NCBI RefSeq assembly: GCF_002252755.1
Contig: NZ_NHOY01000053.1
Span: 1 to 64,000, forward strand
Source: Halorubrum sp. Hd13
GTDB lineage: Archaea; Halobacteriota; Halobacteria; Halobacteriales; Haloferacaceae
Direction: 5' to 3'
Length of the DNA: 64,000 nucleotides
The position numbers were made by a program, and so were the translations under genes. Under the pieces are notes generated by a model. That model was not told the origin of the DNA. It saw nothing but the letters and a program-made list of their open reading frames with translations, and searched no databases. Below are positions 10,415 through 24,907 of this stretch, one piece after another (positions within the stretch are counted from its first letter, which is position 1; each line of letters starts with the position of its first letter).

Positions 10415-11092
10415 TCAGCCGTCCCCCGAACCGCCCTCCGGGAGGTCGGTCGGCCGGTCCACGTCTCGGCGGACCCCCGGGTCGTCGACGGCGACGAGCG
10501 CGCTCGCGTCGTCCGCGAGCAGGATCTCGCGGCCCCCCACGTCCCCGTCGACGTCGGCGAGCCGGTCGAAGAACCGCCGGTCGAACAGCACGGGGTTCCC
10601 CCGGTCCCCCTCGTGGGCGGCCGCGAGGGCGTCGCCGGCGCCCGCGGCGTGCGCCGCGACGAGCGTCTCGACGGTCTCCGGGTCGACGAACGGCATGTCG
10701 CCGAGCGCGATGACCGCGGCGTCGACGTCCGCCCCTCCTCCGGTGCCGTCTTCTCCCTCCCGAAGCGCGTCGATCCCGGCTCGGACCGAGGTCGACTGCC
10801 CCGCCTCGTACGCGTCGTTGTCGACGGTTTCCACGGGGAGATCGGCGACGGCCGCCCGGACTCGACCGGCCTCGTGTCCGACGACGACGACCACCGGGTC
10901 CAGCCCGGCGTCGACCAGCGTCCGAGCGGCGCGTCGGACCACCGGCTCGCCGTCGACGGTCGCGAGGAGCTTGTTGGCGTCGCCGAAGCGGCTGCTCGTC
11001 CCCGCGGCGAGCAGCACGCCGGCGACTCGGGCCCGAGCGGTGCCCTCCCCCTGGAACGGCGGCGTCGCGAGCGGGAGCCCCTCGTCGGTCAT
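10415..11092 (-). CDS. MobA-like nucleotidyltransferase (molybdopterin cytidylyltransferase type)
   Basis: A 225-residue NTP transferase of the MobA/MocA type. The nucleotide-binding loop GVLLAAGTSSRFGDANKLL lies near residues 24-42, the metal aspartate is in ALGDMPF, and NPVLF follows. Enzymes of this type attach CMP to molybdopterin for the xanthine oxidase family, which includes CO dehydrogenase. Its start overlaps the MoeA stop (ATGA, 11089-11092), and the cox operon lies divergently next door. The pairing strongly suggests it makes the cytosine dinucleotide cofactor for CoxL. Confidence 0.88.
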   Translation of the reverse strand: MTDEGLPLATPPFQGEGTARARVAGVLLAAGTSSRFGDANKLLATVDGEPVVRRAARTLVDAGLDPVVVVVGHEAGRVRAAVADLPVETVDNDAYEAGQSTSVRAGIDALREGEDGTGGGADVDAAVIALGDMPFVDPETVETLVAAHAAGAGDALAAAHEGDRGNPVLFDRRFFDRLADVDGDVGGREILLADDASALVAVDDPGVRRDVDRPTDLPEGGSGDG

Positions 11093-12399
11093 CGCTCGAC
11101 GACGGGGTACGGGACGACGTCGACCGCCTCGCCGGCCGACAGCGCCGACTCGGTGAGCACGAACCCGTCGGCGCGCGTCGCCCGCGTGCTCGACGAGAGC
11201 ACGCTCGGGTCGAACGTCTCGTCGTAGACGGCGAGCGGCGAGTCGACGTGGCCGAGCGGCGTCGCCTCGCCCCCGTCGAGCGTCACCGGGACGGCGTAGG
11301 TGAACCCCGGGACGGAGATGCCGACGTCGCTCGTCACCGCGGCGTCGACGGTCGGGAGCGCGGTGTTCCCGGTGAAGAAGGGGCGCGCGACCAGCGAGGT
11401 CACGGCGTGCGCGCCGACCGGCTTGCCGGGGATCGCGAAGACGACGGCGTCGCGGTCGTCGAGCGTCGCGACCGCGATCGGCTTGCCCGGTCGCAGCGCG
11501 ACCCGGTGGAAGTGCACGGTGCCGAGTTCGCGGAGCGCCCGGACGACGTAATCCTTGTCGCCGACGCTCGTGCCCCCGGTCGTCATCACGACGTCGTGGC
11601 CGGCGGCGAGCCCGGCGATCCGGTCCCTGACGCGCTCGTACTCGTCGGGGACGGTGCCCTCGTACGTCGCCTCCGCGCCCCACCCGCGGACGAGCCCCGC
11701 GAGCATCGGCGAGTCGAGGTCCGTGTGGCGCCCCTCGTGGATCTCCGTGCCTGTCGCCAGCAGGCCGACCGAGAGCCGCTCGACGACCGGGACCTCGTCG
11801 ATCCCGAGGTCGCCGAGCAGGACCGCGTCCTTCGCGCCGAGCCGCTCGCCGGCCGCGAACAGCCGCTCGCCGGCCGCGACGTTGCTGCCGCGCTCGTAGA
11901 CGTACGTGCCGGGCTCGGTCGGCGAGCCGTCGAGCCGGCCGTCCTCCACGGTCGCCTGCTCCTGCTTGAGGACGGCGTCGGCCCCGGCGGGAAGCGGCGC
12001 GCCCGTGAAGATACGGACGGCCTCGCCGTCGCCGAGCGCGGACGGGTCGGACTCCGGGAACACCTCCCGGTCGACCAGCTCGTACGGGTACCCCTCGGTC
12101 GCGTCGAAGGCGTAGCCGTCCATCGTGGCGTGGCTCCGGGCCGGCACGTCGTCGGGGGCGTCGACGGGCTCCGCGAGGGTGCGACCGGAGACCCGATCGA
12201 GCGAGACCGACTCGACGTCCCACCGGTCGAGCCACTCCTCGCGGAGGTCGCGGACGCGCTCCGCGGCGGCTCTCAGCGGGGTGATCTCGCCGTGACCGTG
12301 GCCGTTGTCCCCGTCGCCCCCGTCGTCGACACGCCCGTCTCCGTCGCCCTCGTCGTCGACACGCCCGTCGCCGTCAGGTTCGTCGTCGGTACCGTTCAT
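11089..12399 (-). CDS. moeA: Molybdopterin molybdenumtransferase MoeA
   Basis: A 436-residue enzyme that inserts molybdate into adenylylated molybdopterin. Domains of MoeA are in order: domain III/I with RSHATMDGYAF and FTGAPLPAGADAV, the MoCF-binding domain with TTGGTSVGDKDYV, and a C-terminal beta domain. The first 40 residues are a low-complexity acidic leader with two copies of DGDGRVDD, probably species-specific. ATG at 12399 is preferred over an upstream start at 12438. It forms a two-gene operon with the MobA-like gene and is divergent from coxG, so molybdenum cofactor supply and CO dehydrogenase share a promoter region. Confidence 0.92.
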   Translation of the reverse strand: MNGTDDEPDGDGRVDDEGDGDGRVDDGGDGDNGHGHGEITPLRAAAERVRDLREEWLDRWDVESVSLDRVSGRTLAEPVDAPDDVPARSHATMDGYAFDATEGYPYELVDREVFPESDPSALGDGEAVRIFTGAPLPAGADAVLKQEQATVEDGRLDGSPTEPGTYVYERGSNVAAGERLFAAGERLGAKDAVLLGDLGIDEVPVVERLSVGLLATGTEIHEGRHTDLDSPMLAGLVRGWGAEATYEGTVPDEYERVRDRIAGLAAGHDVVMTTGGTSVGDKDYVVRALRELGTVHFHRVALRPGKPIAVATLDDRDAVVFAIPGKPVGAHAVTSLVARPFFTGNTALPTVDAAVTSDVGISVPGFTYAVPVTLDGGEATPLGHVDSPLAVYDETFDPSVLSSSTRATRADGFVLTESALSAGEAVDVVPYPVVER

Positions 12400-12471
12400 C
12401 CGCTTCCTCCGCGTCGTTCGCGGTCGATATCGGCGCATCCGGGCGATCCTTCATGGTCAATAAGGTTTATT

Positions 12472-12531: not shown

Positions 12532-12588
12532 GATGACGGTGACGGACGGTCGAACGACGGCGGAAGCGGCGACCGGGGGGTGTCGCTG

Positions 12589-13185
12589 ATGGAGTTCGAC
12601 GGCGAGTTCGAGCTCGACGGCGTCCCGCCGGAGAAGGCGTGGGTCGTCCTCTCGGACCCGGTCGCGGTGCGCGACTCGCTGAAGGGGTGTAAGTACATCA
12701 CCCCGATGGACGACTCGTTCGAGTGGGACTCCTACGAGGCGGAGGAGGACGTCCCGACGCTGCCGGAGGCGGAGGCCGACGACGTCGCCGCCCGGGCGTT
12801 CCGGGCCGGGCAGGACTACGCGGCGCTGATGCAGGTCGGCGTCGGCAGCGTGAAGCCGAAGTTCGAGACGACGGTGACGATCGAGGACCGCGACGAGGAG
12901 ACCTTCGAGATGACGGCCACCGGCTCCGGCTCCGCGAGCGGGAGCAGCTTCAGCATGAACTCCGGGATGCACATCCATCCCCAAGAGGACGGCGACGGCT
13001 CCCAAATCGAGTGGTGGACCGAGGCCGACATCTCCGGTCGGATCGCGCAGCTCGGCGGCCGCGTCATCAACCCGGTCGCCAACAAGATCGTGAACAACTT
13101 CTTCACCTCGATCGAGTCGCAGATGACCGACGTCGAGGAGACGGACTCGGGGGTCACGGACAAGATCCGGGGGATGTTCGGATGA
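12589..13185 (+). CDS. coxG: CoxG-family protein, CO dehydrogenase subunit G
   Basis: A 198-residue SRPBCC/START-fold protein of the CoxG family, which in bacteria helps to recruit CO dehydrogenase to the membrane and binds lipophilic quinone. The typical pattern is seen: MEFDGEFEL at the start, ppEKAWVVLSDP, then a C-terminal segment with NKIVNNFF. ATG at 12589 is used; an in-frame GTG at 12580 is possible. It is the first cox gene and its stop overlaps the coxM start as ATGA. Confidence 0.9.
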   Translation: MEFDGEFELDGVPPEKAWVVLSDPVAVRDSLKGCKYITPMDDSFEWDSYEAEEDVPTLPEAEADDVAARAFRAGQDYAALMQVGVGSVKPKFETTVTIEDRDEETFEMTATGSGSASGSSFSMNSGMHIHPQEDGDGSQIEWWTEADISGRIAQLGGRVINPVANKIVNNFFTSIESQMTDVEETDSGVTDKIRGMFG

Positions 13186-14075
13186 AGTCCGCACCGTTCG
13201 AGCACCACGAACCCGAGACGGTCGACGAGGCGGTCAGCCTGTTGGAGAGCCTCGACGACCCGACGATCCTCGCCGGGGGACAGAGCCTCGTACCGATGCT
13301 GCGGTTCCGGCTCGCGAACCCCGACGTGGTCGTCGACATCAACGGCATCGACTCGCTCGACTACCTCCGCGAGGAGGACGGCTCCCTCCGGCTCGGCGCG
13401 CTCGCGCGCCACGCCGACGTCGAGGACTCGGACCTGATCGACGAGAAGTACGGCAGCTTCGCCGACGCCGCGCCGCTGGTCGCCGACCCGCAGATCCGGA
13501 ACCGCGGCACGGTCGTCGGCTCCGTCGCGCAGGCCGACCCGAAGGGCGACTGGGGGAGCATCCTCCTCGCCCACGAGGGCGAGGTGATCGCCACCGGTCC
13601 GGACGGAGACCGGGCGGTCCCGGCGGACGAGTTCTTCCTGCTCCCGTACGACACGACGCTCGGCGAGCAGGAGCTGATCACCGAGATCCGCGTCCCCGAG
13701 CCCGGGCCGAACGAGGGGAGCGCGTACCACAAGCTGAAGCGCAAGACCGGCGACTACGCGATGGCGGGCGTCGGCGTCCGGCTCGTCTTCGACGACGACG
13801 GCGTCATCGAGTCGGCCGGGATCGGAATGACCGCCGTCGACATCACGAACGCGCGGGCGACGGACGCCGAGGAGCACCTCGAAGGCGAGCGGCCCAGCCC
13901 CGACCTGTTCGCGACGGCGGGCGAACTGGCCGCCGAGCAGTCGAATCCGGAGTCTGACGAACACGGCGGCGCCGACTACAAGGAGCGGATGGTCGACGTC
14001 CTCACCCAGCGCGCGCTGGGCGACGCCGCCGAGCGCGCTGGCACGGTGACGGTCGAACGGAGGGTCACACAGTGA
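13182..14075 (+). CDS. coxM: CO dehydrogenase FAD subunit CoxM
   Basis: A 297-residue medium subunit with the FAD domain of the xanthine oxidase family. [10 protein letters not shown] (from residue 31) and [14 protein letters not shown] match the two FAD-contacting loops, and a CO_deh_flav_C domain closes the protein. It passes electrons from the iron-sulfur subunit to the respiratory quinone. Overlapping starts and stops tie it to coxG and coxS (ATGA and GTGA). Confidence 0.94.
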
Positions 14076-14833
14076 CTGACGAACGCGAGATCACGCTGAC
14101 GGTCAACGGCACCGAGCACACGGTCGAGGTCGAGCCGCGGCGCCTGCTCGTCCACGCGATCCGAGAGGACCTGGACATGACGGGCACGCACATCGGCTGT
14201 GACACGGGCAACTGCGGCGCCTGCACCGTGCTGAAGGACGGCGAGCCGATCAAGTCCTGTCTGATGTTCGCCGCGCAGGCCGACGGGGCGGAGATCCTCA
14301 CCGTCGAGGGGATGGAGGACCTCCCCGAGGCCGACGACATCCACCCGCTCCAGGAGGGGTTCCGGGAGGAGCACGGCCTGCAGTGCGGCTACTGCACCCC
14401 GGGGATGCTGATGGCGGGCAAGGCGCTGCTCGACGAGCATCCGGACCCGGACGAGGAGACGATCCGCGACGCGATCAGCGGCAACCTCTGTCGCTGTACC
14501 GGCTACCAGAACATCGTCCGCTCGATCGAGTACGCGGCCGCGGAGCTGGAGAACCGGGCCGCCGCCGACGGCGGCGCGGTCGCGGTCGACGGAGCGACGG
14601 ACGGGGGGCCCGCGGCGTCGCCCGAGGGCGGCCACGCGGCCCCCGAGTTCGGCGGCGACGCGGACACGTTCTGCGGCCGCGAGGACTGCTGCGGCGGCCC
14701 CGACGAGGCGGACCCGTTCGACCGCGACGCGCTCCTCGATGACGCGGACGACGCGGACGGCACTGGCGACGCGGACGTCACGGGCGACGCCGACGCGGGC
14801 GCCGATGCGACCGACCGAGGTGACACCAAATGA
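14072..14833 (+). CDS. coxS: CO dehydrogenase iron-sulfur subunit CoxS with Cys-rich tail
   Basis: The small subunit holding two [2Fe-2S] clusters. The plant-type cluster uses Cys43, Cys48, Cys51 and Cys63 and the second uses Cys105, Cys108, Cys140 and Cys142, all present. The normal protein ends near residue 165. Here it continues to 253 with an acidic, Gly/Ala/Asp-rich tail containing [10 protein letters not shown] (Cys201, Cys206, Cys207). The start is GTG at 14072, overlapping the coxM stop, and the stop overlaps coxL. The tail is unusual; it could be a metal-binding or docking element, or simply a halophilic extension. Confidence 0.94.
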
Positions 14834-17325
14834 GTAGCGAACCAGACACGCCGGACGCGGAAACGGAGTATCAGCACGACGAGGACGGCGGACCCGACCC
14901 GGAGAAACACTGCGGCCACGGCCGCGGCGGCATGGGCGAGGAGGTGACGCGCAAGGAGGACAAGCGCTTCATCACCGGCCGCGGCAACTACGTCGACGAC
15001 ATCAAGAAGCCGGGCATGCTCCACTGCGAGATCGTCCGGAGCCCACACGCCCACGCCCGGATCGAGGAGATCGACGGCTCCCGCGCCGAGGCGATGGACG
15101 ACGTCGTCGCCGTGCTGACGGCCGAGGACTTACTGGAGCACGACCTCGCGACGATGCCGACGCTGATGGACGACACGCAGGACGTGCTCGTCAACGACAA
15201 GGTGAAGTTCCAGTCGCAGGAGGTCGCGGCCGTCATCGCGAAGGACCGCTACGCGGCGAAGGACGGGGCCGAGAAGGTCGAGGTCGACTACGACGTGCTC
15301 GACCCCGTCGTCGACGCCGAGGAGGCGCTCGAAGCGGACGCGCCGCTGGTCCGCGACGAGCTCGACGACCAGGAGGACAACCACATCTTCGACTGGGACA
15401 CGGGCGACGAGGAGGCCACCGACGAGGTGTTCGACCAGGCCGACGTCACCGTCGAGGAGGACATGCTGTACCAGCGGCTTCACCCCGCGCCGATCGAGAC
15501 GTGCGGCGCGGTCGCCGACTGGGACCCCGGGATGGACAAGATGACCGTCCACATGACGTCGCAGGCGCCCCACGCCCACCGCACCCTGTTCTCGCAGGTG
15601 TCGGGGATCCCGGAGCATAAGGTCCGGATCGTGAGCCCCGACGTCGGCGGCGGGTTCGGCAACAAGGTACCGATCTACCCGGGGTACGTCGTCGCCGCGG
15701 CGGCGTCGTACGTCCTCGAACAGCCGGTGAAGTGGATCGAAGAGCGCTCCGAGAACATCCAGACGACCGGGTTCGCCCGCGACTACGACATGACCGGCGA
15801 GCTCGCCGCCACCGAGGACGGCGTCATCGAGGGCGTCAAGGTCGACGTGCTCGCCAACCACGGCGCGTACAACGCGGCGGCCCAGCCGTCGAAGTTCCCG
15901 GCCGGCTTCTTCAACATCTTCACCGGCTCGTACGATATCGAGGCCGCGTACGGGTCGCTGACGGCCGCGTTCACCAACACCGCGCCCGGCGGCGTCGCCT
16001 ACCGGTGCTCGTTCCGCGTCACGGAGGCGGTGTACCTCATCGAGCGCATGGTGAAGGTGCTCGCCGACGAGCTCGACCTGGACCCGGCGGAGATACGCCG
16101 GCGGAACTTCATCCCCTCGGACGCGTTCCCGTACGAGTCGGCGACGGGCTGGAACTACGACTCCGGGAACTACGAGAAGGCGCTCGACAAGGCCCTGGAG
16201 ATGGCCGACTACGAGCACTACCGCGAGGAGCAGCAGCGACGGATCGACGAGGACGCGGACAAGCTCATCGGCATCGGCATCTCCTCGTTCACGGAGGTCG
16301 TCGGCGCCGGGCCCGGCAAGCAGTGCGACATCGCCGGCATCGAGATGTTCGACTCCGCGGACCTGCGCGTGAACCCGACCGGCAACGCCGTGTTGCGGGT
16401 CGGCGTCCAGACGCAGGGGCAGGGCCACGAGACCACCTTCGCGCAGATCGTCGCCGAGGAGCTCGGGATGGACGTGGACTCGATTACGGTCGAGCACGGC
16501 GACACCGACACCGAGCCGTACGGGCTCGGGACGTACGGCTCGCGGTCGACGCCCGTCGCGGGCGCGGCCGCCGCCGTCGCCGCGCGCAAGGTGCGCGACA
16601 AGGCGAAGTCGATCGCCGCCAACGAGCTGGAGGCCGCCGAGGAGGACATCGAGTGGGACCGCGAGTCCGGCGAGTTCCACGTCGCCGGCGCGCCCGACCG
16701 CTCGATCACCATCACGGAGATCGCGGCCGGCGCCTACATGAACCACCCCGGCGACGAGGAGCCCGGGCTGGAGGCCGTGAACTACTACGACCCGCCGGAG
16801 ATGACGTACCCGTTCGGCTCGTACATCGTCGTCGTCGAGGTCGACCGCGAGACCGGCGAGGTCGACTTCGAGAAGTTCGTCGCGGTCGACGACTGCGGGA
16901 ACCGCATCAACCCGATGATCATCGAGGGGCAGATCCACGGCGGACTCGCGCAGGGGATCGGCACCGCGATGTTAGAGAAGGTCACCTACGACGACAACGG
17001 CAACGTCACCGGCGGCGACTTCATGAACTACCTGCTGCCGACGGCCAACGAGATCCCGAACTTCGAGACGGGACACACCGTCACGCCGTCGCCGCACCAC
17101 CCGATCGGCGCGAAGGGCGTCGGCGAGTCGCCCACGGTCGGGTCGCCGCCGGCGATCGTCAACGCCGTCGTCGACGCGATGAGCCACGCCGGCGTCTCCC
17201 ACGTGGAGATGCCGATGACGCCGGACGTCGTCTGGGAGACGCTCGACGAGGCGGGACTGGCACACCAGCCCGCCCACAACGTCGAGTTCGACCTCGGCGA
17301 CGGCGCCGAACCGGCCGACGACTGA
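14830..17325 (+). CDS. coxL: CO dehydrogenase large subunit CoxL, form I
   Basis: The 831-residue catalytic subunit that oxidises CO to CO2 at a Mo-S-Cu centre with molybdopterin cytosine dinucleotide. The active-site loop AYRCSFR is the form I signature, with the copper-binding cysteine at residue 393; form II enzymes have AYRGAGR. The glycine-rich cofactor loop VGGGFGNK and the C-terminal catalytic glutamate motif [10 protein letters not shown] are present. The N-terminus carries an extra 30-40 residues with [11 protein letters not shown]. It is bound to coxS by an ATGA overlap. A genuine aerobic CO oxidiser is expected. Confidence 0.95.
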
Positions 17326-17439: not shown

Positions 17440-18660
17440 ATGACACACGACGAGACCGAACACGACGAGACCGAGCACGGCGAGGCCGACGAGCCCGCGA
17501 TCGACGGGGGCGAGCGGCCCGAACGCGACGAACCGAGCGGGACCGCGACGGGGACCGACGACGGCGACGTCTCCGACCTGGAGGCGGCGCTCGCCGAGCG
17601 CGGCGAGCCGTACGCGCGGGCGACGATCGTCCGGCGCGAGCCGCCGGTGTCGGCCAACGTCGGCGACCGCGCGGTCGTCACCGCCGACGGCGAGATCCAC
17701 GGGTGGGTCGGCGGCGCGGCCTGCGCGCAGTCGATCGTGGCGACGCAGGGCGCGGCGGCGATCGAGGAGGGGAGCCCCCGGCTCGTCGGGATCGCGCCCG
17801 ACCCCGACACCGTCGACCGACCCGGGCTCGACGCCTTCCCGATGACGTGTCACAGCGAGGGCGTGCTGGAGCTGTTCATCGAGCCCGTGACGCCGACGAC
17901 CGAACTCGTCGCAGTCGGCGACTCGCCGGTGACCCGGTCGCTCGCGCGGCTGGCCGACGAGCTCGCCGTCGACGTGACGCTCGTCGTCGCCGACGCCGAC
18001 GCCGACCGCGACGTGCCGGCGTCGACGCGGGTGCTCGACACGGTCGACCACGAGGCGATCGCCGACGCCGTCGGCCCCGGGCCGCTCGTCGTCGTCGCCT
18101 CGATGGGCGAGTACGACGCGCGCGGCGTCGCCGCCGGGATCCTCGCGGACGCGCCCTACGTCGGTCTCGTCGCCAGCGACGAGCGGGCGGCCGAGGTGAC
18201 CGAGCGCGCCGCGGGGCTGCTCGACAGCGACGTGGGTGACGTCGTCGCGGCGGTGACGAACCCCGCCGGCGTCGACGTGGCGGCCTACACCCCGGCGGCG
18301 ATCGCGGCGAGCCTGCTCGCCGAGGTCGTCGGCGAGCGGTCGAAGGCGAGCTCGGTGCGGGCAGGCGGGGCGCGCGGCACGGGCGGCGCTGTCGGCACGG
18401 GCGATACCGCTGCAGTCGATTCGGCTGACGACGACGGAAGTGACGACAGGACCGCCGAGATGGATGACGGAAGCGACGACGAGACCGCCGCGGCCGACGA
18501 CGCGACCGCGATCGACCCGGTCTGCGGCATGACCGTCGACCCGGCGACGGCGGACGCCTCGGTCGAGCACGACGGCGAGACGTACCACTTCTGCTGTCAC
18601 GGCTGCGCCGACTCGTTCGCGAACGACCCGGCGTCGTACCTCGAGGGGGCAGAGGCGTGA
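17440..18660 (+). CDS. XdhC/CoxI-family maturation protein fused to a YHS metal-binding domain
   Basis: A 406-residue protein with an acidic N-terminal leader (1-45), an XdhC_CoxI domain (about 46-135, GWVGGAACAQS), an XdhC Rossmann domain (about 150-300, VAVGDSPVT), an acidic linker (about 300-355) and a YHS domain (358-404). The YHS ligands are Cys362 (IDPVCGM), and Cys385, Cys386 and Cys389 (FCCHGC), closing with FANDPASYLEG. XdhC/CoxI proteins bind molybdenum cofactor and help build the active site; YHS domains bind soft metals including copper. A copper hand-over role is therefore attractive but inferred. It follows coxL after 114 bases and overlaps the CoxD start. Confidence 0.88.
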   Translation: MTHDETEHDETEHGEADEPAIDGGERPERDEPSGTATGTDDGDVSDLEAALAERGEPYARATIVRREPPVSANVGDRAVVTADGEIHGWVGGAACAQSIVATQGAAAIEEGSPRLVGIAPDPDTVDRPGLDAFPMTCHSEGVLELFIEPVTPTTELVAVGDSPVTRSLARLADELAVDVTLVVADADADRDVPASTRVLDTVDHEAIADAVGPGPLVVVASMGEYDARGVAAGILADAPYVGLVASDERAAEVTERAAGLLDSDVGDVVAAVTNPAGVDVAAYTPAAIAASLLAEVVGERSKASSVRAGGARGTGGAVGTGDTAAVDSADDDGSDDRTAEMDDGSDDETAAADDATAIDPVCGMTVDPATADASVEHDGETYHFCCHGCADSFANDPASYLEGAEA

Positions 18661-19673
18661 GCGGGGAGCTCGACGCGGGCCCCTTCGACTCGCTCACCGA
18701 GGAGGAACTGCGCGAGCGATTCGAGGCGACCGACTACGTCGCCGACGACCGCACTGTGACGACGGTCGATCTGGCGCTCCGCTTGGGGCGCCCGCTCCTC
18801 GTCGAGGGGCCGCCCGGAAGCGGGAAGACGGAGCTCGGCAAGACGCTCGCGGAGGGGTTCGACACGGAGCTGATCCGCCTCCAGTGTTACGAGGGGCTCA
18901 CCGCCGAGAACGCCCTCTACGAGTGGAACTACACCAAACAGCTGCTCGCCGTGCAGGCCGACGAGGGCACGGTCGCCGGCGGCGCCGCGACGAACGGCGA
19001 CGCCGGAGCTGTCGGCGAGCGCGACGGGGGCGGCGTCGCCGACGCGGTCAGCGGCGGCGACGCCGCCGGCTCGGTGTTCGGCGAGGAGTACCTCCTCGAA
19101 CGCCCCCTGTTGCGCGCGCTCCGCAGTTCGGAGGGGCGCCCGCCGGTGCTGCTGATCGACGAGATCGACCGCGCGGACGAGGAGTTCGAGGCGTTCCTCC
19201 TTGAGCTGCTCTCGGACTTCCAGGTGTCGATCCCGGAGTACGGAACCGTGAGCGCGTCGACGCCGCCGATCGTGATCCTCACGTCGAACCGGACGCGGGG
19301 GCTGAGCGACGCGCTGAAGCGGCGGTGCCTCTACCTCCACGTCGAGCCGCCGTCGTTCGAGACGGAGTACGAGATCGTCCGCCGGAAGGTGCCCGAGCTC
19401 GACGCCGCGGTCGCCGCCGAGGTGTGCTCGGTGGTCGAGCGCCTGCGCGAGGAGTCGTTCCTCAAGCGCCCGGGCGTCGCCGAGACGCTGGACTGGGCGC
19501 GCGCGGTCGCCGCGCTGCGCCACGACGACGCCGACGAGCCGCTCGCGCCGGACGAGATCGAGCGGACGATCGGCTGCCTGCTGAAGGAGGCGGAGGACGT
19601 CGGTCGCGTCGACGCGGAACTGCTCGAACGGCTCCACGACGCCGCGAGCGCGGCGGCCGAGCGGACCGAGTGA
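18657..19673 (+). CDS. coxD: CoxD-type MoxR AAA+ ATPase
   Basis: A 338-residue MoxR-family AAA+ ATPase. Walker A is GPPGSGKT, Walker B is LLIDEIDRAD, and a sensor motif ILTSNRTRGLSD follows. An insertion of about 35 Gly/Ala-rich residues (roughly 103-138) sits between them. In bacteria CoxD is needed to add sulfur to the CoxL molybdenum site, working with the VWA protein CoxE. It starts with GTG overlapping the stop of the XdhC-YHS gene, and coxE follows two bases after its stop. Confidence 0.92.
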   Translation: MSGELDAGPFDSLTEEELRERFEATDYVADDRTVTTVDLALRLGRPLLVEGPPGSGKTELGKTLAEGFDTELIRLQCYEGLTAENALYEWNYTKQLLAVQADEGTVAGGAATNGDAGAVGERDGGGVADAVSGGDAAGSVFGEEYLLERPLLRALRSSEGRPPVLLIDEIDRADEEFEAFLLELLSDFQVSIPEYGTVSASTPPIVILTSNRTRGLSDALKRRCLYLHVEPPSFETEYEIVRRKVPELDAAVAAEVCSVVERLREESFLKRPGVAETLDWARAVAALRHDDADEPLAPDEIERTIGCLLKEAEDVGRVDAELLERLHDAASAAAERTE

Positions 19674-19675
19674 CC

Positions 19676-21106
19676 ATGGCGCGCTCCGACGGCACCGCGA
19701 CGGAGACGCCCGACTTCCCGGCGGCGAGGGAGCACCTGCTCACGGAGCTGATCCGGTTCGTCGCCGTGCTTCGGCGCGACGGCGTCGCCGTGCCGGCCTC
19801 CGGCGCCCTCGACGCCGCCCGCGCGATCGCGGCGGTCGGCCTGACAGACGAGCGTCGGGTCGAGGCGGCGCTGCGAGCGAGCCTGCTCTCCGAGACCGCC
19901 GACGGCGACCCCTTCGCCGAGGCGTTCCCGACGTTCTGGCACCGCCTCCGGAGCGGCCTCGACCGGATCGCCACCGCCCACGACGGTCCGTCGCCGGAGT
20001 CCGAGGAGGGGGACGACGGCGAGGACCGAACGGGGGACGAGGCGGGGCCGACCGCCGGCTCCGACGCCGACGACGCGGAGGAGCCCGGCCTGCTCGACGG
20101 CGCGGAGCCGCCGGAGATGGACGCCGACGGCGACGGCGACCCCACCGTCCGGATCCCGACCGACCGCCGCCACGCCGCCGGCGATCGGCCGACCGGCGAG
20201 CCGCGCGAGGAGACGGACGGGCGCCGGTACAGCGCGGTCGGCGAGAGCGCGCTCGTCGAGGCGGACGTGCCGGCGCCGTCGAGCGCGGACCGCGCGGCCG
20301 CGGAGCGGTTCGTCGACGCGCTCTCGTCGCTGCCCGGGCGGCGCCGCCGGCGCTCCCCGACCGGACCGAACGTCGACGCGCGCGGCGCGCTGCGGGCGAG
20401 CCTGCAGACCGGCGGCGCGCCGATCGACCTCCCGCGCGACGCGCCGACGCCGAGCGAACTGCGGTGCTGTCTGCTGGTCGACGTCAGCGGGTCGGTGCTC
20501 GACACGATCGACCGGAGCGCGCTGCTCGGGCTCGGTGAGCGGGTCGCGGCGAGCGCCCGCGACGCCCGCGTCTTCCTCTTCGACACCGACCTCGCGGAGG
20601 CGACGGCGGCGTTCGCGGACCCGGGCGGCGAGCCGGCCGAGGCGCTCCGCGCCGCGCAGATCGAGTGGGGCGGCGGCACCAAGATCGGGGGCGCGTTCGA
20701 CGCGCTGCGGCGGACCGCGCCGCACGCCGTCGACCGGCGGACGGTCGTCGTCGTCGTGAGCGACGGGCTCGACGTCGGCGACCCCGACCTGCTCACGGAC
20801 GGGATCACGTGGCTCGCGGACCGCGCCGACGGCGTCGTCTGGCTCAACCCGCTCGCCGTCTCCCCGTCGTTCGAGCCGGCGTCCCGCGGGATGAGCGACG
20901 CGGCCCCGTACGTCGACGGACTGTTCGGCTTCGCCGAGGGCGCGGACCTCGCGGAGGCCGCCCGCCAGATCGAGCGGCGCGGGCTCGGCGGCCCGGTCGG
21001 CTACGAGCACGACCCGCGTCGGACCGGCGGCGCGCCCGGAGGCGGACGCGGTCGCACCGACGACGAGGCCCGGACCGGCGACGCCGGCGAGGAGGGCGTC
21101 GTATGA
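19676..21106 (+). CDS. coxE: CoxE-type VWA-domain protein
   Basis: A 476-residue VWA_CoxE protein. The N-terminal 100 residues are helical, a long acidic linker follows, and the VWA domain begins near 260 with the metal-ion site DVSGS at Asp269 and continues with GGGTKIGGAFDAL and VVVVSDGLD. CoxE partners the MoxR ATPase CoxD as a chaperone for CO dehydrogenase and is needed for copper insertion in the bacterial system. ATG at 19676 is the start; a longer open frame upstream overlaps coxD and is not coding. The stop overlaps the DUF364 gene. Confidence 0.92.
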   Translation: MARSDGTATETPDFPAAREHLLTELIRFVAVLRRDGVAVPASGALDAARAIAAVGLTDERRVEAALRASLLSETADGDPFAEAFPTFWHRLRSGLDRIATAHDGPSPESEEGDDGEDRTGDEAGPTAGSDADDAEEPGLLDGAEPPEMDADGDGDPTVRIPTDRRHAAGDRPTGEPREETDGRRYSAVGESALVEADVPAPSSADRAAAERFVDALSSLPGRRRRRSPTGPNVDARGALRASLQTGGAPIDLPRDAPTPSELRCCLLVDVSGSVLDTIDRSALLGLGERVAASARDARVFLFDTDLAEATAAFADPGGEPAEALRAAQIEWGGGTKIGGAFDALRRTAPHAVDRRTVVVVVSDGLDVGDPDLLTDGITWLADRADGVVWLNPLAVSPSFEPASRGMSDAAPYVDGLFGFAEGADLAEAARQIERRGLGGPVGYEHDPRRTGGAPGGGRGRTDDEARTGDAGEEGVV

Positions 21107-21993
21107 CGCGCCGAAGCGAGGGAGCCGACGGGACCGCCGGCGTCGGCGCCGACGGCACCGACGCCGACGAGGAGTGGCCCGGTCCGGTCCTCCGGGCGAC
21201 GCGCGACGCGCTCCGCGACCGCGGCGCGCTCTCGGGGGGTCGCCTCGACCGCGTCACGGTCGGCGACTCGGCCGTGCTGGTGGAGCTCACGGAGCGAGAC
21301 GGGGGATACCGGCGGCCCCCGGCCGGACTCGCGCACCTCCCAGCGGGATCCGCGCCGACGGTCCCGGACGACGTCGAGGGACTGCTGGCGCCGGTCCGAG
21401 CGGGGGAGACTGCGACCGGCGCCGCGACCGTCGCCCTCGGCGACCGCGCGCTCGCGGTGGCGACGCTGAACGCCTGCGCGGCGCCGCTGCTCGACTGGCG
21501 GGACGGCGACCCGATGGCGCTGCTCGACCCCTCGGTCGAGACGGTCGTCACGGTCGGTCTGTTCCGGCCGGCGTTCCGGAAGTTCGACGGCGTGGAGGTC
21601 CGCGCGATCGAGCGCGAGCCCGTCGACTCGGATGCGGTGTCGACCCCCGCGGGCGTGTCGCTGCGGTCGTTCGCCCCGGCGGAGACGGCGGGCGCGATGG
21701 AGGGGGCGGACGTGGTGTTCGTCACCGGCTCGACGCTCGTGTACGGCGGGACCGAGCGGTACCTGGAGGCGGCCCCGGGCTCGGCGACCGTCGTCGTGGT
21801 CGGCGCGACCGCCTCGTCGCTTCCGAGTCCGCTGTTCGAGCGCGGCGTCGACGTCGTCGCCGGCGCGGCGGTGGACGACCCCGCTCGGACGCGGGACGCG
21901 GTGGCGGGCGGCGCCTGCGGCACGGACCTGCACGACCGCGGCGTTCGGAAGGTGTACGCGGCGCGCGACGCGCCGGCGACCATCGACCTGTGA
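21103..21993 (+). CDS. DUF364 (heavy-metal chelation-type) Rossmann protein in the cox operon
   Basis: A 296-residue protein of the DUF364 family, annotated in databases as putative heavy-metal chelation and resembling a radical/nitrogenase-cofactor related Rossmann fold. An N-terminal domain (about 20-110) leads to the core with ALAVATLNACAAPLLDWRDGDP and a second half with VVFVTGSTLVYGGTERYL. Such proteins often occur with molybdenum or tungsten enzymes. It sits by ATGA overlap directly behind coxE and six bases before the XdhC gene, so it is part of the operon. A metal-handling role is probable; direct evidence is lacking. Confidence 0.72.
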   Translation: MTRRSEGADGTAGVGADGTDADEEWPGPVLRATRDALRDRGALSGGRLDRVTVGDSAVLVELTERDGGYRRPPAGLAHLPAGSAPTVPDDVEGLLAPVRAGETATGAATVALGDRALAVATLNACAAPLLDWRDGDPMALLDPSVETVVTVGLFRPAFRKFDGVEVRAIEREPVDSDAVSTPAGVSLRSFAPAETAGAMEGADVVFVTGSTLVYGGTERYLEAAPGSATVVVVGATASSLPSPLFERGVDVVAGAAVDDPARTRDAVAGGACGTDLHDRGVRKVYAARDAPATIDL

Positions 21994-21999
21994 CCTGAC

Positions 22000-23238
22000 A
22001 TGACAGCAAGCAACTGGAGCGTACCGGAGACCGAAGTGGTACAGCGCGTTCGCGACCGACTCGACGCCGACGGCACCGACGTGCTCGCGACGATCGTCGA
22101 CGTCGAGGGGAACGCCTACCGTCGCCCGGGGGCGAAGATGCTCCTCGACGACGACGGCTCGGGCGTCGGCTCGATCACGGCGGGCTGTATCGAGGACGAC
22201 CTGCTCGCCGCCGCCGAGGCGGTCCGAGAGACCGGTCGCCCCGACCGGGTCACGTACGACCTGATGGAGGACGAGGACGACGTCTGGGGGCTCGGCGTCG
22301 GCTGTAACGGCGTGATCGACGTCCTCTTGGAACCGTTGACGGAGACGTACCGGCCGGCCGTCGAGGCGTTCGGCGCCGGCCGCGACGTCGCGGTGCTCAC
22401 GGTGCTCTCCGCCGGCGGCGAGGGGGGCGAGGGGGGCGACGGCGGCGCGGGAGCCGGCGGCGACGGTGCGCACGCCGACCGAGACCGCCTCGGCGAGCGC
22501 GCCTACTACCGGCCCGACGAGGACCGGCTGACGCTCCCCGACGGGTCGCCCGCCGACGGGTGGCCGGTCGAGGCGCTCGCGGGGCCGGCGGCGGACCTCG
22601 CCGCGCGCGGCGCCGCCGACGTCGTCGCGGTCGAGGACGAGACGGGCGCGACGGTGGAGGTGTTCGTCGACGGGCTCGCGGCCCCGGACGACCTCGTGGT
22701 CTTCGGGACCGGCCACGACGTGGGGCCGGTGGTCGAACTCGGCGAGCGGAACGACTTCCGCGTCACCGTCGTCGGCTTCCGCGGCGGGGTCGACCTCGAC
22801 GCGCGGTTCCCCGACGCCCACCGGACCGTGACGACGTCGCCGGCGGGGCTCGGCGACGCGCTCGACCTCGACGACCGGACGCACGCGGTCGTGATGACGC
22901 ACAACTTCGTCGACGACCGGATCGCGGTGGAGGAGCTGCTCCGGTCGCAGGCGCCGTACGTCGGCCTGATGGGCCCGCGGGAGCGGTTCGAGGAGATGCT
23001 GGAGGCGTACGACGACGAGGGGACGACGTTCGGCGAGTCGGAGCTCGCGTCGCTGTACACGCCCGTCGGGCTCGACCTCGGCGGCGGAACGCCGTACCAG
23101 ATCGCCCACAGCATCGTCGGAGAGGTCCTCGCGGTCAGCAACGACCGGACCCCGCGGCACCTGCGCGAGCGCGAGGGGCACATCCACGACCGCGTCGACG
23201 TCGAGACGCGCTCGGAGCCGGAGCCGCCGAGTCGGTGA
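22000..23238 (+). CDS. CoxF-type XdhC-family maturation factor
   Basis: A 412-residue XdhC/CoxF protein: an XdhC_CoxI domain (ATIVDVEGNAYRRPGAKML, GSITAGCIEDDL) followed by an XdhC Rossmann domain (VVFGTGHDVGPVVEL, HAVVMTHNFVDDRIAVEELL). A Gly-rich insert lies near residue 140-155. CoxF-type proteins guide insertion of molybdenum cofactor and copper into CoxL. This is the second XdhC-family member of the operon, and unlike the one at 17440 it has no YHS domain. It is the last gene of the cox set; the following gene is convergent. Confidence 0.9.
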   Translation: MTASNWSVPETEVVQRVRDRLDADGTDVLATIVDVEGNAYRRPGAKMLLDDDGSGVGSITAGCIEDDLLAAAEAVRETGRPDRVTYDLMEDEDDVWGLGVGCNGVIDVLLEPLTETYRPAVEAFGAGRDVAVLTVLSAGGEGGEGGDGGAGAGGDGAHADRDRLGERAYYRPDEDRLTLPDGSPADGWPVEALAGPAADLAARGAADVVAVEDETGATVEVFVDGLAAPDDLVVFGTGHDVGPVVELGERNDFRVTVVGFRGGVDLDARFPDAHRTVTTSPAGLGDALDLDDRTHAVVMTHNFVDDRIAVEELLRSQAPYVGLMGPRERFEEMLEAYDDEGTTFGESELASLYTPVGLDLGGGTPYQIAHSIVGEVLAVSNDRTPRHLREREGHIHDRVDVETRSEPEPPSR

Positions 23239-24493: not shown

Positions 24494-24907
24494 TCAGAGC
24501 GAGAGGTGCGAGGTCGACCCGGGATCGTCGTCGTCGGTCCCGCCCTCGTGCCGGAACGAGTAGTCGCCGTCGGTCAGGTAGACGGCGCCCTCCTCGACGG
24601 CGACCTCGACCTCGCGGAGCGTCGTCCCGGCCGCCGGGCCGTTGTCGCACTCGCCGGAGCAGGCGTCGAACAGCGAGCCGTGGCGCGGGCAGATCACCTC
24701 GCCGTCCCGCATCGGGACGCCGTCGCCCGTGTCGAACCGCTGGTTCTCGTGCGGGCAGGTGTTGACCCACGCCCGCACCCCGGGCGGCTCGTCGCAGGGC
24801 ACGAGGACGACCTCTCTGTCGTTCGTGAACGGGTCCGCCGCCGTGAAGCGGTGGGACCCGCGCTCGATGAGGGTCTCGACGTCGGCGAGCTTCGTCCCGT
24901 CCGGCAT
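24494..24907 (-). CDS. Rieske [2Fe-2S] protein
   Basis: A 137-residue soluble Rieske ferredoxin. The cluster ligands are in TCPHENQRFD and ICPRHGSLFD (Cys-x-His and Cys-x2-His pairs). The fold is complete, with an acidic C-terminal tail, and there is no membrane helix. It could be a ferredoxin of a ring-hydroxylating or nitrite-reductase type system, but no partner oxygenase is adjacent, so its electron partner is unknown. Confidence 0.88.
   Translation of the reverse strand: MPDGTKLADVETLIERGSHRFTAADPFTNDREVVLVPCDEPPGVRAWVNTCPHENQRFDTGDGVPMRDGEVICPRHGSLFDACSGECDNGPAAGTTLREVEVAVEEGAVYLTDGDYSFRHEGGTDDDDPGSTSHLSL

Follow-up and report, generated by a model that had tools for sequence, protein, structure and literature searches.

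CoxF and the copper step of CO dehydrogenase maturation

Aerobic CO dehydrogenase is the main biological sink of atmospheric CO, and gene-level work on how copper enters its Mo-Cu site has been done mainly in Oligotropha (Afipia) carboxidovorans, whose CoxF protein lacks a clear metal site. In this organism the step that requires CoxF is copper insertion, which follows sulfuration and takes place on enzyme that already contains molybdenum (PMC4240915). CO dehydrogenase from a coxF mutant contained 1.85 Mo and 0.043 Cu per mol, and its activity was 0.136 versus 8.5 (PMC4240915). The mutant enzyme retained its sulfane sulfur, CoxD being the protein that serves sulfuration, and both sulfur and copper join a cofactor that is already inside the folded enzyme (PMC4240915). 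Since each of the coxE and coxF mutants is devoid of CoxE as well as CoxF (PMC4240915), the copper defect cannot be assigned to CoxF alone. CoxF was proposed to be a copper escort on the basis of short motifs, namely MCPSHGTM, a phytase-like motif and RGD (PMC4240915); in a review it figures as an uncharacterised XdhC relative (PMC2997495). Rhodobacter capsulatus XdhC and its relatives, which are molybdenum cofactor chaperones, serve copper-free molybdenum hydroxylases and have no YHS domain.

YHS/TRASH domains bind metal through an Asp or Cys plus three Cys (PMC4626032). The YHS domain of a Mycobacterium phlei adenylyl cyclase, a C-terminal tethered module, confers a response to copper and none to Zn, Fe, Cr, Co or Ni (PMC4626032). 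The gene described below places such a domain on an XdhC-family maturation factor, whereas in M. phlei it is carried by a cyclase and in heavy-metal P-type ATPases by a transporter.

The coxF-YHS gene and its operon

The window analysed is a stretch of 64,000 nucleotides from Halorubrum sp. Hd13. It holds a cox operon on the plus strand with the order coxG (12580-13185; Pfam COXG), coxM for the FAD subunit (13182-14075; FAD_binding_5, CO_deh_flav_C), coxS for the [2Fe-2S] subunit (14072-14833; Fer2, Fer2_2), coxL for the large subunit (14830-17325), coxF-YHS (17440-18660), coxD for a MoxR-type AAA+ ATPase (18657-19673; AAA_5, AAA), coxE for a VWA protein (19676-21106; VWA_CoxE), a DUF364 gene (21103-21993; 82.8 bits) and a second XdhC gene without YHS (22000-23238; XdhC_CoxI, XdhC_C). 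The end of coxF-YHS thus overlaps coxD by 4 bases. Divergently upstream on the minus strand are a moeA-like molybdenum cofactor gene (11089-12438; MoeA_N, MoCF_biosynth) and a mobA/mocA-like nucleotidyltransferase gene (10415-11086, the 5' end being approximate; NTP_transf_3). The CoxL protein is of form I (TIGR02416, 1206 bits versus a cut-off of 991), and its AYRCSFR motif includes Cys393, the expected copper ligand. Natronorubrum bangense has the identical gene order. In O. carboxidovorans, too, coxD and coxE belong to a form I cox operon, but there the order is coxL-D-E-F and in Halorubrum coxL-F-D-E. The DUF364 gene, whose family is labelled 'putative heavy-metal chelation', follows coxE in N. 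bangense as well and may also take part in metal handling. A small Rieske [2Fe-2S] protein is encoded nearby (24494-24907, minus strand).

The coxF-YHS gene (plus strand) is a single open reading frame that runs from ATG to stop without internal stops and encodes 406 residues. Its product comprises an XdhC_CoxI domain (residues 52-116; 46.2 bits, cut-off 24.3), a Rossmann-type XdhC_C domain (156-296; 53.4 bits, cut-off 29.7) and a YHS domain (PF04945; 358-402; 51.3 bits, cut-off 30.3), part of which (361-395) also matches TRASH_HVO_1752_C (28.4 bits, cut-off 27). The linker at 300-357 is acidic, with 15 Asp/Glu and 5 Lys/Arg, and residues 311-350 are predicted to be disordered (block-mean pLDDT 41-52, versus 95-97 for most of the YHS domain). 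The solved structures closest to the predicted model are the XdhC-family entries 2we8/2we7 and 3on5; the M. smegmatis protein (2we8/2we7) has the XdhC_CoxI plus XdhC_C fold in common with it (Foldseek E 6.7e-15). When the YHS part alone was compared with plasmids, the top matches were heavy-metal ATPases. The first-pass annotation, made from the letters of the window, had described two XdhC domains joined by an acidic linker to a YHS domain with Cys362, Cys385, Cys386 and Cys389, beside a form I CoxL with Cys393; Pfam, TIGR02416 and the sequence itself bear this out in full.

A counterpart is found in Thermomicrobium roseum, in which a protein of 336 residues, encoded directly after coxL, has the same three domains (YHS 58.2 bits, with the motif FCC..C). 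It differs from the Halorubrum protein in its shorter linker and in having no acidic N-terminal extension, and it is annotated only as an XdhC family protein.

Assignment to CoxF

Which XdhC-family protein is this? In a quick tree of 148 XdhC-domain sequences, built with the YHS part excluded and with SH-aLRT as the only support measure, the coxF-YHS protein and O. carboxidovorans CoxF share one clade (122 rows, SH-aLRT 97). This clade contains every YHS-bearing protein, and CoxI, including that of O. carboxidovorans, lies outside it with the other XdhC proteins, among them the second XdhC of the Halorubrum operon. The product of 17440-18660 is accordingly an orthologue of CoxF. Pairwise identities agree (30% to O. 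carboxidovorans CoxF versus 20% to its CoxI), and the XdhC_CoxI and XdhC_C domains and the form I operon with coxMSL, coxD and coxE are as expected of CoxF. The xanthine dehydrogenase XdhC model TIGR02964 did not match the protein; NF045664 did so at 54.9 bits, below its cut-off of 350, and the protein falls below the cut-offs of all curated XdhC models. The CoxF of O. carboxidovorans OM5 (plasmid pHCG3, 280 residues) shares the clade, both XdhC domains and the position of a C-x-S-x-G motif with the Halorubrum protein but has neither YHS domain nor linker.

A second type of XdhC protein without YHS, encoded near form I coxL, branches just outside the CoxF clade. It occurs in Thermoplasmata, SAR324, Gammaproteobacteria and one deltaproteobacterial MAG (L064:3340-4320, L093:4752-5687, L100:7361-8752, L103:15610-16977, L116:16692-17741, L117:16962-17825 and L065:14487-15458). 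The L065 copy was considered as a CoxF without YHS and rejected, since the tree places it outside the CoxF clade.

A candidate metal site in the YHS domain

The YHS part is encoded at 18511-18645 (plus strand). The protein has six cysteines (95, 137, 362, 385, 386 and 389), of which three are spaced Cys362-x22-Cys385-x3-Cys389 with Asp359 ahead, fitting the pattern C-x19-25-C-x3-C; the YHS domains of the M. phlei cyclase (PMC4626032) and of heavy-metal P-type ATPases share the arrangement D-x2-C-x22-C-x3-C. By analogy, Asp359, Cys362, Cys385 and Cys389 are likely to be the ligands, and Cys386 is optional. The cysteine triad is kept in 125 of 128 fused relatives, a count that takes one of them (L106), read by eye, as intact. 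The position of Asp359 is Asp or Asn in nearly all of them, and that of Cys386 varies, 88 of the 128 having Cys there. Three relatives without Cys362 and Cys385 retain the YHS domain, Cys386 and Cys389 (S/T-C-x2-C). These come from Deinococcus, Meiothermus and one MAG (L037:6944-8062, L101:13026-14180 and L107:5960-6955); the form I CoxL next to them is intact, and the metal site of the YHS domain is altered or absent. The contig of the last, L107, is a MAG contig labelled Bifidobacterium breve; it is probably misbinned because an anaerobe is an unlikely owner of a form I cox locus.

Of the proposed copper motif MCPSHGTM (residues 107-114 in O. carboxidovorans), the Cys, Ser and Gly are kept as Cys137, Ser139 and Gly141 in coxF-YHS, and this Cys is invariant in an alignment of 61 fused proteins. 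The Met and His are not kept across the family, nor even within the Alphaproteobacteria, so the motif does not define the CoxF family. We rejected MCPSHGTM and RGD, which are not conserved in the family, as general copper machinery.

The fusion is specific to form I CO dehydrogenase

All XdhC genes of 25 genomes that had been found by way of their form I loci, 63 in number, were read individually. The YHS domain is present on 23 of them, and all 23 are in form I loci (in one genome, G412, about 5.5 kb from coxL). It is on none of the 28 XdhC genes outside form I loci, many of which lie beside other molybdenum hydroxylases, and on none of the 12 additional XdhC genes inside form I loci. Fisher's test gives p 1.7e-8, a value that serves only as a guide because related genomes are not independent. 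The fusion thus does not occur equally with copper-free molybdenum enzymes, so the first of the two refutations named in the first-pass annotation does not apply. Together with the orthology to CoxF, whose mutant loses Cu and not Mo (PMC4240915), this sustains the link to the Mo-Cu site drawn there. In sequence data, the XdhC-YHS architecture can also be used to tell form I CO dehydrogenase operons from molybdenum hydroxylases that resemble them. In many haloarchaea, a stretch resembling XdhC, about 33-39% identical to residues 50-308, lies in open reading frames of some 530-690 residues without a YHS match (for example G102:C3:195114-195866 and G342:C6:54118-54873). These are possibly another XdhC fusion; their Haloarcula relatives are annotated yqeB.

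Distribution among genomes gives a similar picture. Form I CoxL (81-100% identical across the query stretch, versus at most 46% for other CoxL-like enzymes) is encoded in 41 of 392 Halobacteria genomes, and exactly the same 41 encode CoxF. The YHS domain is kept in 40 of these, the exception (G020) having the linker and no YHS, and the fusion is absent from 62 further Halobacteria genomes with only CoxL-like proteins that are not of form I. Among Actinomycetes, form I CoxL is found in 36 of 198 genomes and complete CoxF in 33, counting one (G500) whose contig has just a fragment of CoxL. Thirty of the 33 have the YHS domain, four of them (G482, G555, G575 and G585) judged from match coordinates alone; G498, G565 and G471 lack it. 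The third sample, of many phyla, consisted of 80 form I loci chosen by CoxL alone with one genome per species, and was ranked by likeness to Thermomicrobium CoxL, with Alphaproteobacteria under-represented; 68 of these loci have the fusion. Among the others, two have CoxF without YHS (L111 and L118), one has no XdhC gene nearby (L115), one has only the second-type copy described above (L065), and the remainder are truncated at the ends of their contigs. Since the fusion is present in all but one of the 41 haloarchaeal genomes with form I and recurs in numerous bacterial and archaeal phyla, it is neither a chance event nor an assembly artefact.

On plasmids, CoxF with YHS was found in Thermomicrobium roseum, Natronorubrum, Paraburkholderia and Caballeronia, and in Deinococcus the YHS domain is degenerate. 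It is absent from nine of nine sampled alphaproteobacterial CoxF proteins, that of O. carboxidovorans included, and from Nonomuraea. No free-standing YHS gene that would replace the fusion was seen in the fetched loci. A restriction of the fusion to haloarchaea was considered and rejected, since translations of bacterial CoxF genes show the YHS domain; tblastn of plasmids had missed it there because this short piece fell below the E limit.

A proposed role in copper insertion, and the alternatives

We propose that CoxF hands copper to the Mo-SH site, that the YHS domain on its acidic tether holds this copper, and that the fusion is original and was lost repeatedly; we put the probability of this reading at about 0.7. 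The XdhC part would dock on apo-CO dehydrogenase whose molybdenum site is already in place and sulfurated. The YHS/TRASH domain on its flexible acidic tether would hold one copper through Asp359, Cys362, Cys385 and Cys389, and Cu(I) would then pass to Mo-SH and to Cys393 of CoxL, completing the Mo-S-Cu-S-Cys centre. CoxD and CoxE would work in the same pathway.

O. carboxidovorans makes an active copper-containing CO dehydrogenase with a CoxF that naturally has no YHS domain, so the domain is not strictly required and another copper site or source must serve in that organism. Active enzyme after loss of YHS was the outcome that the first-pass annotation had named as contrary to a copper-delivery role, and this natural case matches it only in part. 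With YHS on the CoxF of most other lineages, the model organism is atypical. We regard it as an even bet that form I CO dehydrogenase has in XdhC-YHS its ancestral, near-universal copper metallochaperone, a new kind of copper donor that would load Cu(I) onto a Mo-SH group buried in the enzyme, and that the copper route described for O. carboxidovorans (phytate, RGD contact, MCPSHGTM), an organism that would have lost the copper-holding domain, is accordingly not general. A separable conserved domain of about 45 residues on the CoxF of these other lineages offers a concrete copper-donor candidate that can be mutated.

Might the domain instead sense copper, acting as a gate on CoxF while copper reaches the molybdenum site by another route? 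Direct copper data are available for just one YHS domain, that of the adenylyl cyclase, a sensor in which it is also C-terminal and tethered (PMC4626032), and the losses of YHS from operons that are otherwise kept would suit a regulatory add-on. A core step nevertheless fits better with the strict tie to the sole copper enzyme of the family and with presence across phyla, and what the coxF mutant lacks is copper, not its control (PMC4240915). We consider a sensor or gate unlikely.

The domain could also have nothing to do with copper. It might be held together by zinc and provide structure or a docking surface for CoxL, CoxD or CoxE, or it might carry a thiol or persulfide for sulfuration; specificity for form I would then stem from that of its partner. 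Some TRASH/YHS folds have a structural role or lack metal: in a crystal, L24e has Cd bound, and the YHS domain of toluene-4-monooxygenase has no metal (PMC4626032). Sequence searches with coxF-YHS also match phenol hydroxylase and L24e, and, as noted above, some relatives keep the domain after loss of two of the three cysteines. Retention of the ligand triad in almost all relatives speaks against such a role, as does the fact that CoxD serves sulfuration and the coxF-mutant enzyme keeps its sulfane sulfur (PMC4240915), which makes it quite improbable in our judgement.

The suggestion of the first-pass annotation that molybdenum cofactor (on the XdhC part) and copper (on the YHS part) travel on a single protein draws on the sharing of one chain by the two domains and on the binding of the cofactor by XdhC proteins of other enzymes (PMC2997495), but it is very improbable given the full Mo content of the coxF-mutant enzyme, the addition of sulfur and copper to a cofactor already in place (PMC4240915) and the separate XdhC gene at 22000-23238, which together disfavour carriage of the cofactor by CoxF.

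The open literature (subscription journals being outside the scope of the search) yielded no paper that treats XdhC and YHS together, although domain databases display the architecture, and none that joins CO dehydrogenase or CoxF with YHS. CoxF being a known maturation factor, it is the YHS-fused form that seems to be undescribed, with a plausible gain in mechanism.

History of the fusion

When presence or absence of YHS is mapped on the tree, five changes are needed, versus 36 in shuffles. This suggests that the YHS domain was joined to CoxF once, at the root of the form I CoxF clade, and lost several times afterwards, a history read from the quick SH-aLRT tree, in which several deep forks lack resolution. 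On the simplest reading one haloarchaeon, the Alphaproteobacteria and the Streptosporangiaceae would each have lost the domain, with one or two further losses among actinomycetes. Halorubrum coxF-YHS thus has what looks like the original full-length form of CoxF. One of the actinomycete proteins without YHS (G565; L224:4972-5961) ends in HCAAHGH, possibly a small Cys/His tail that replaces the domain.
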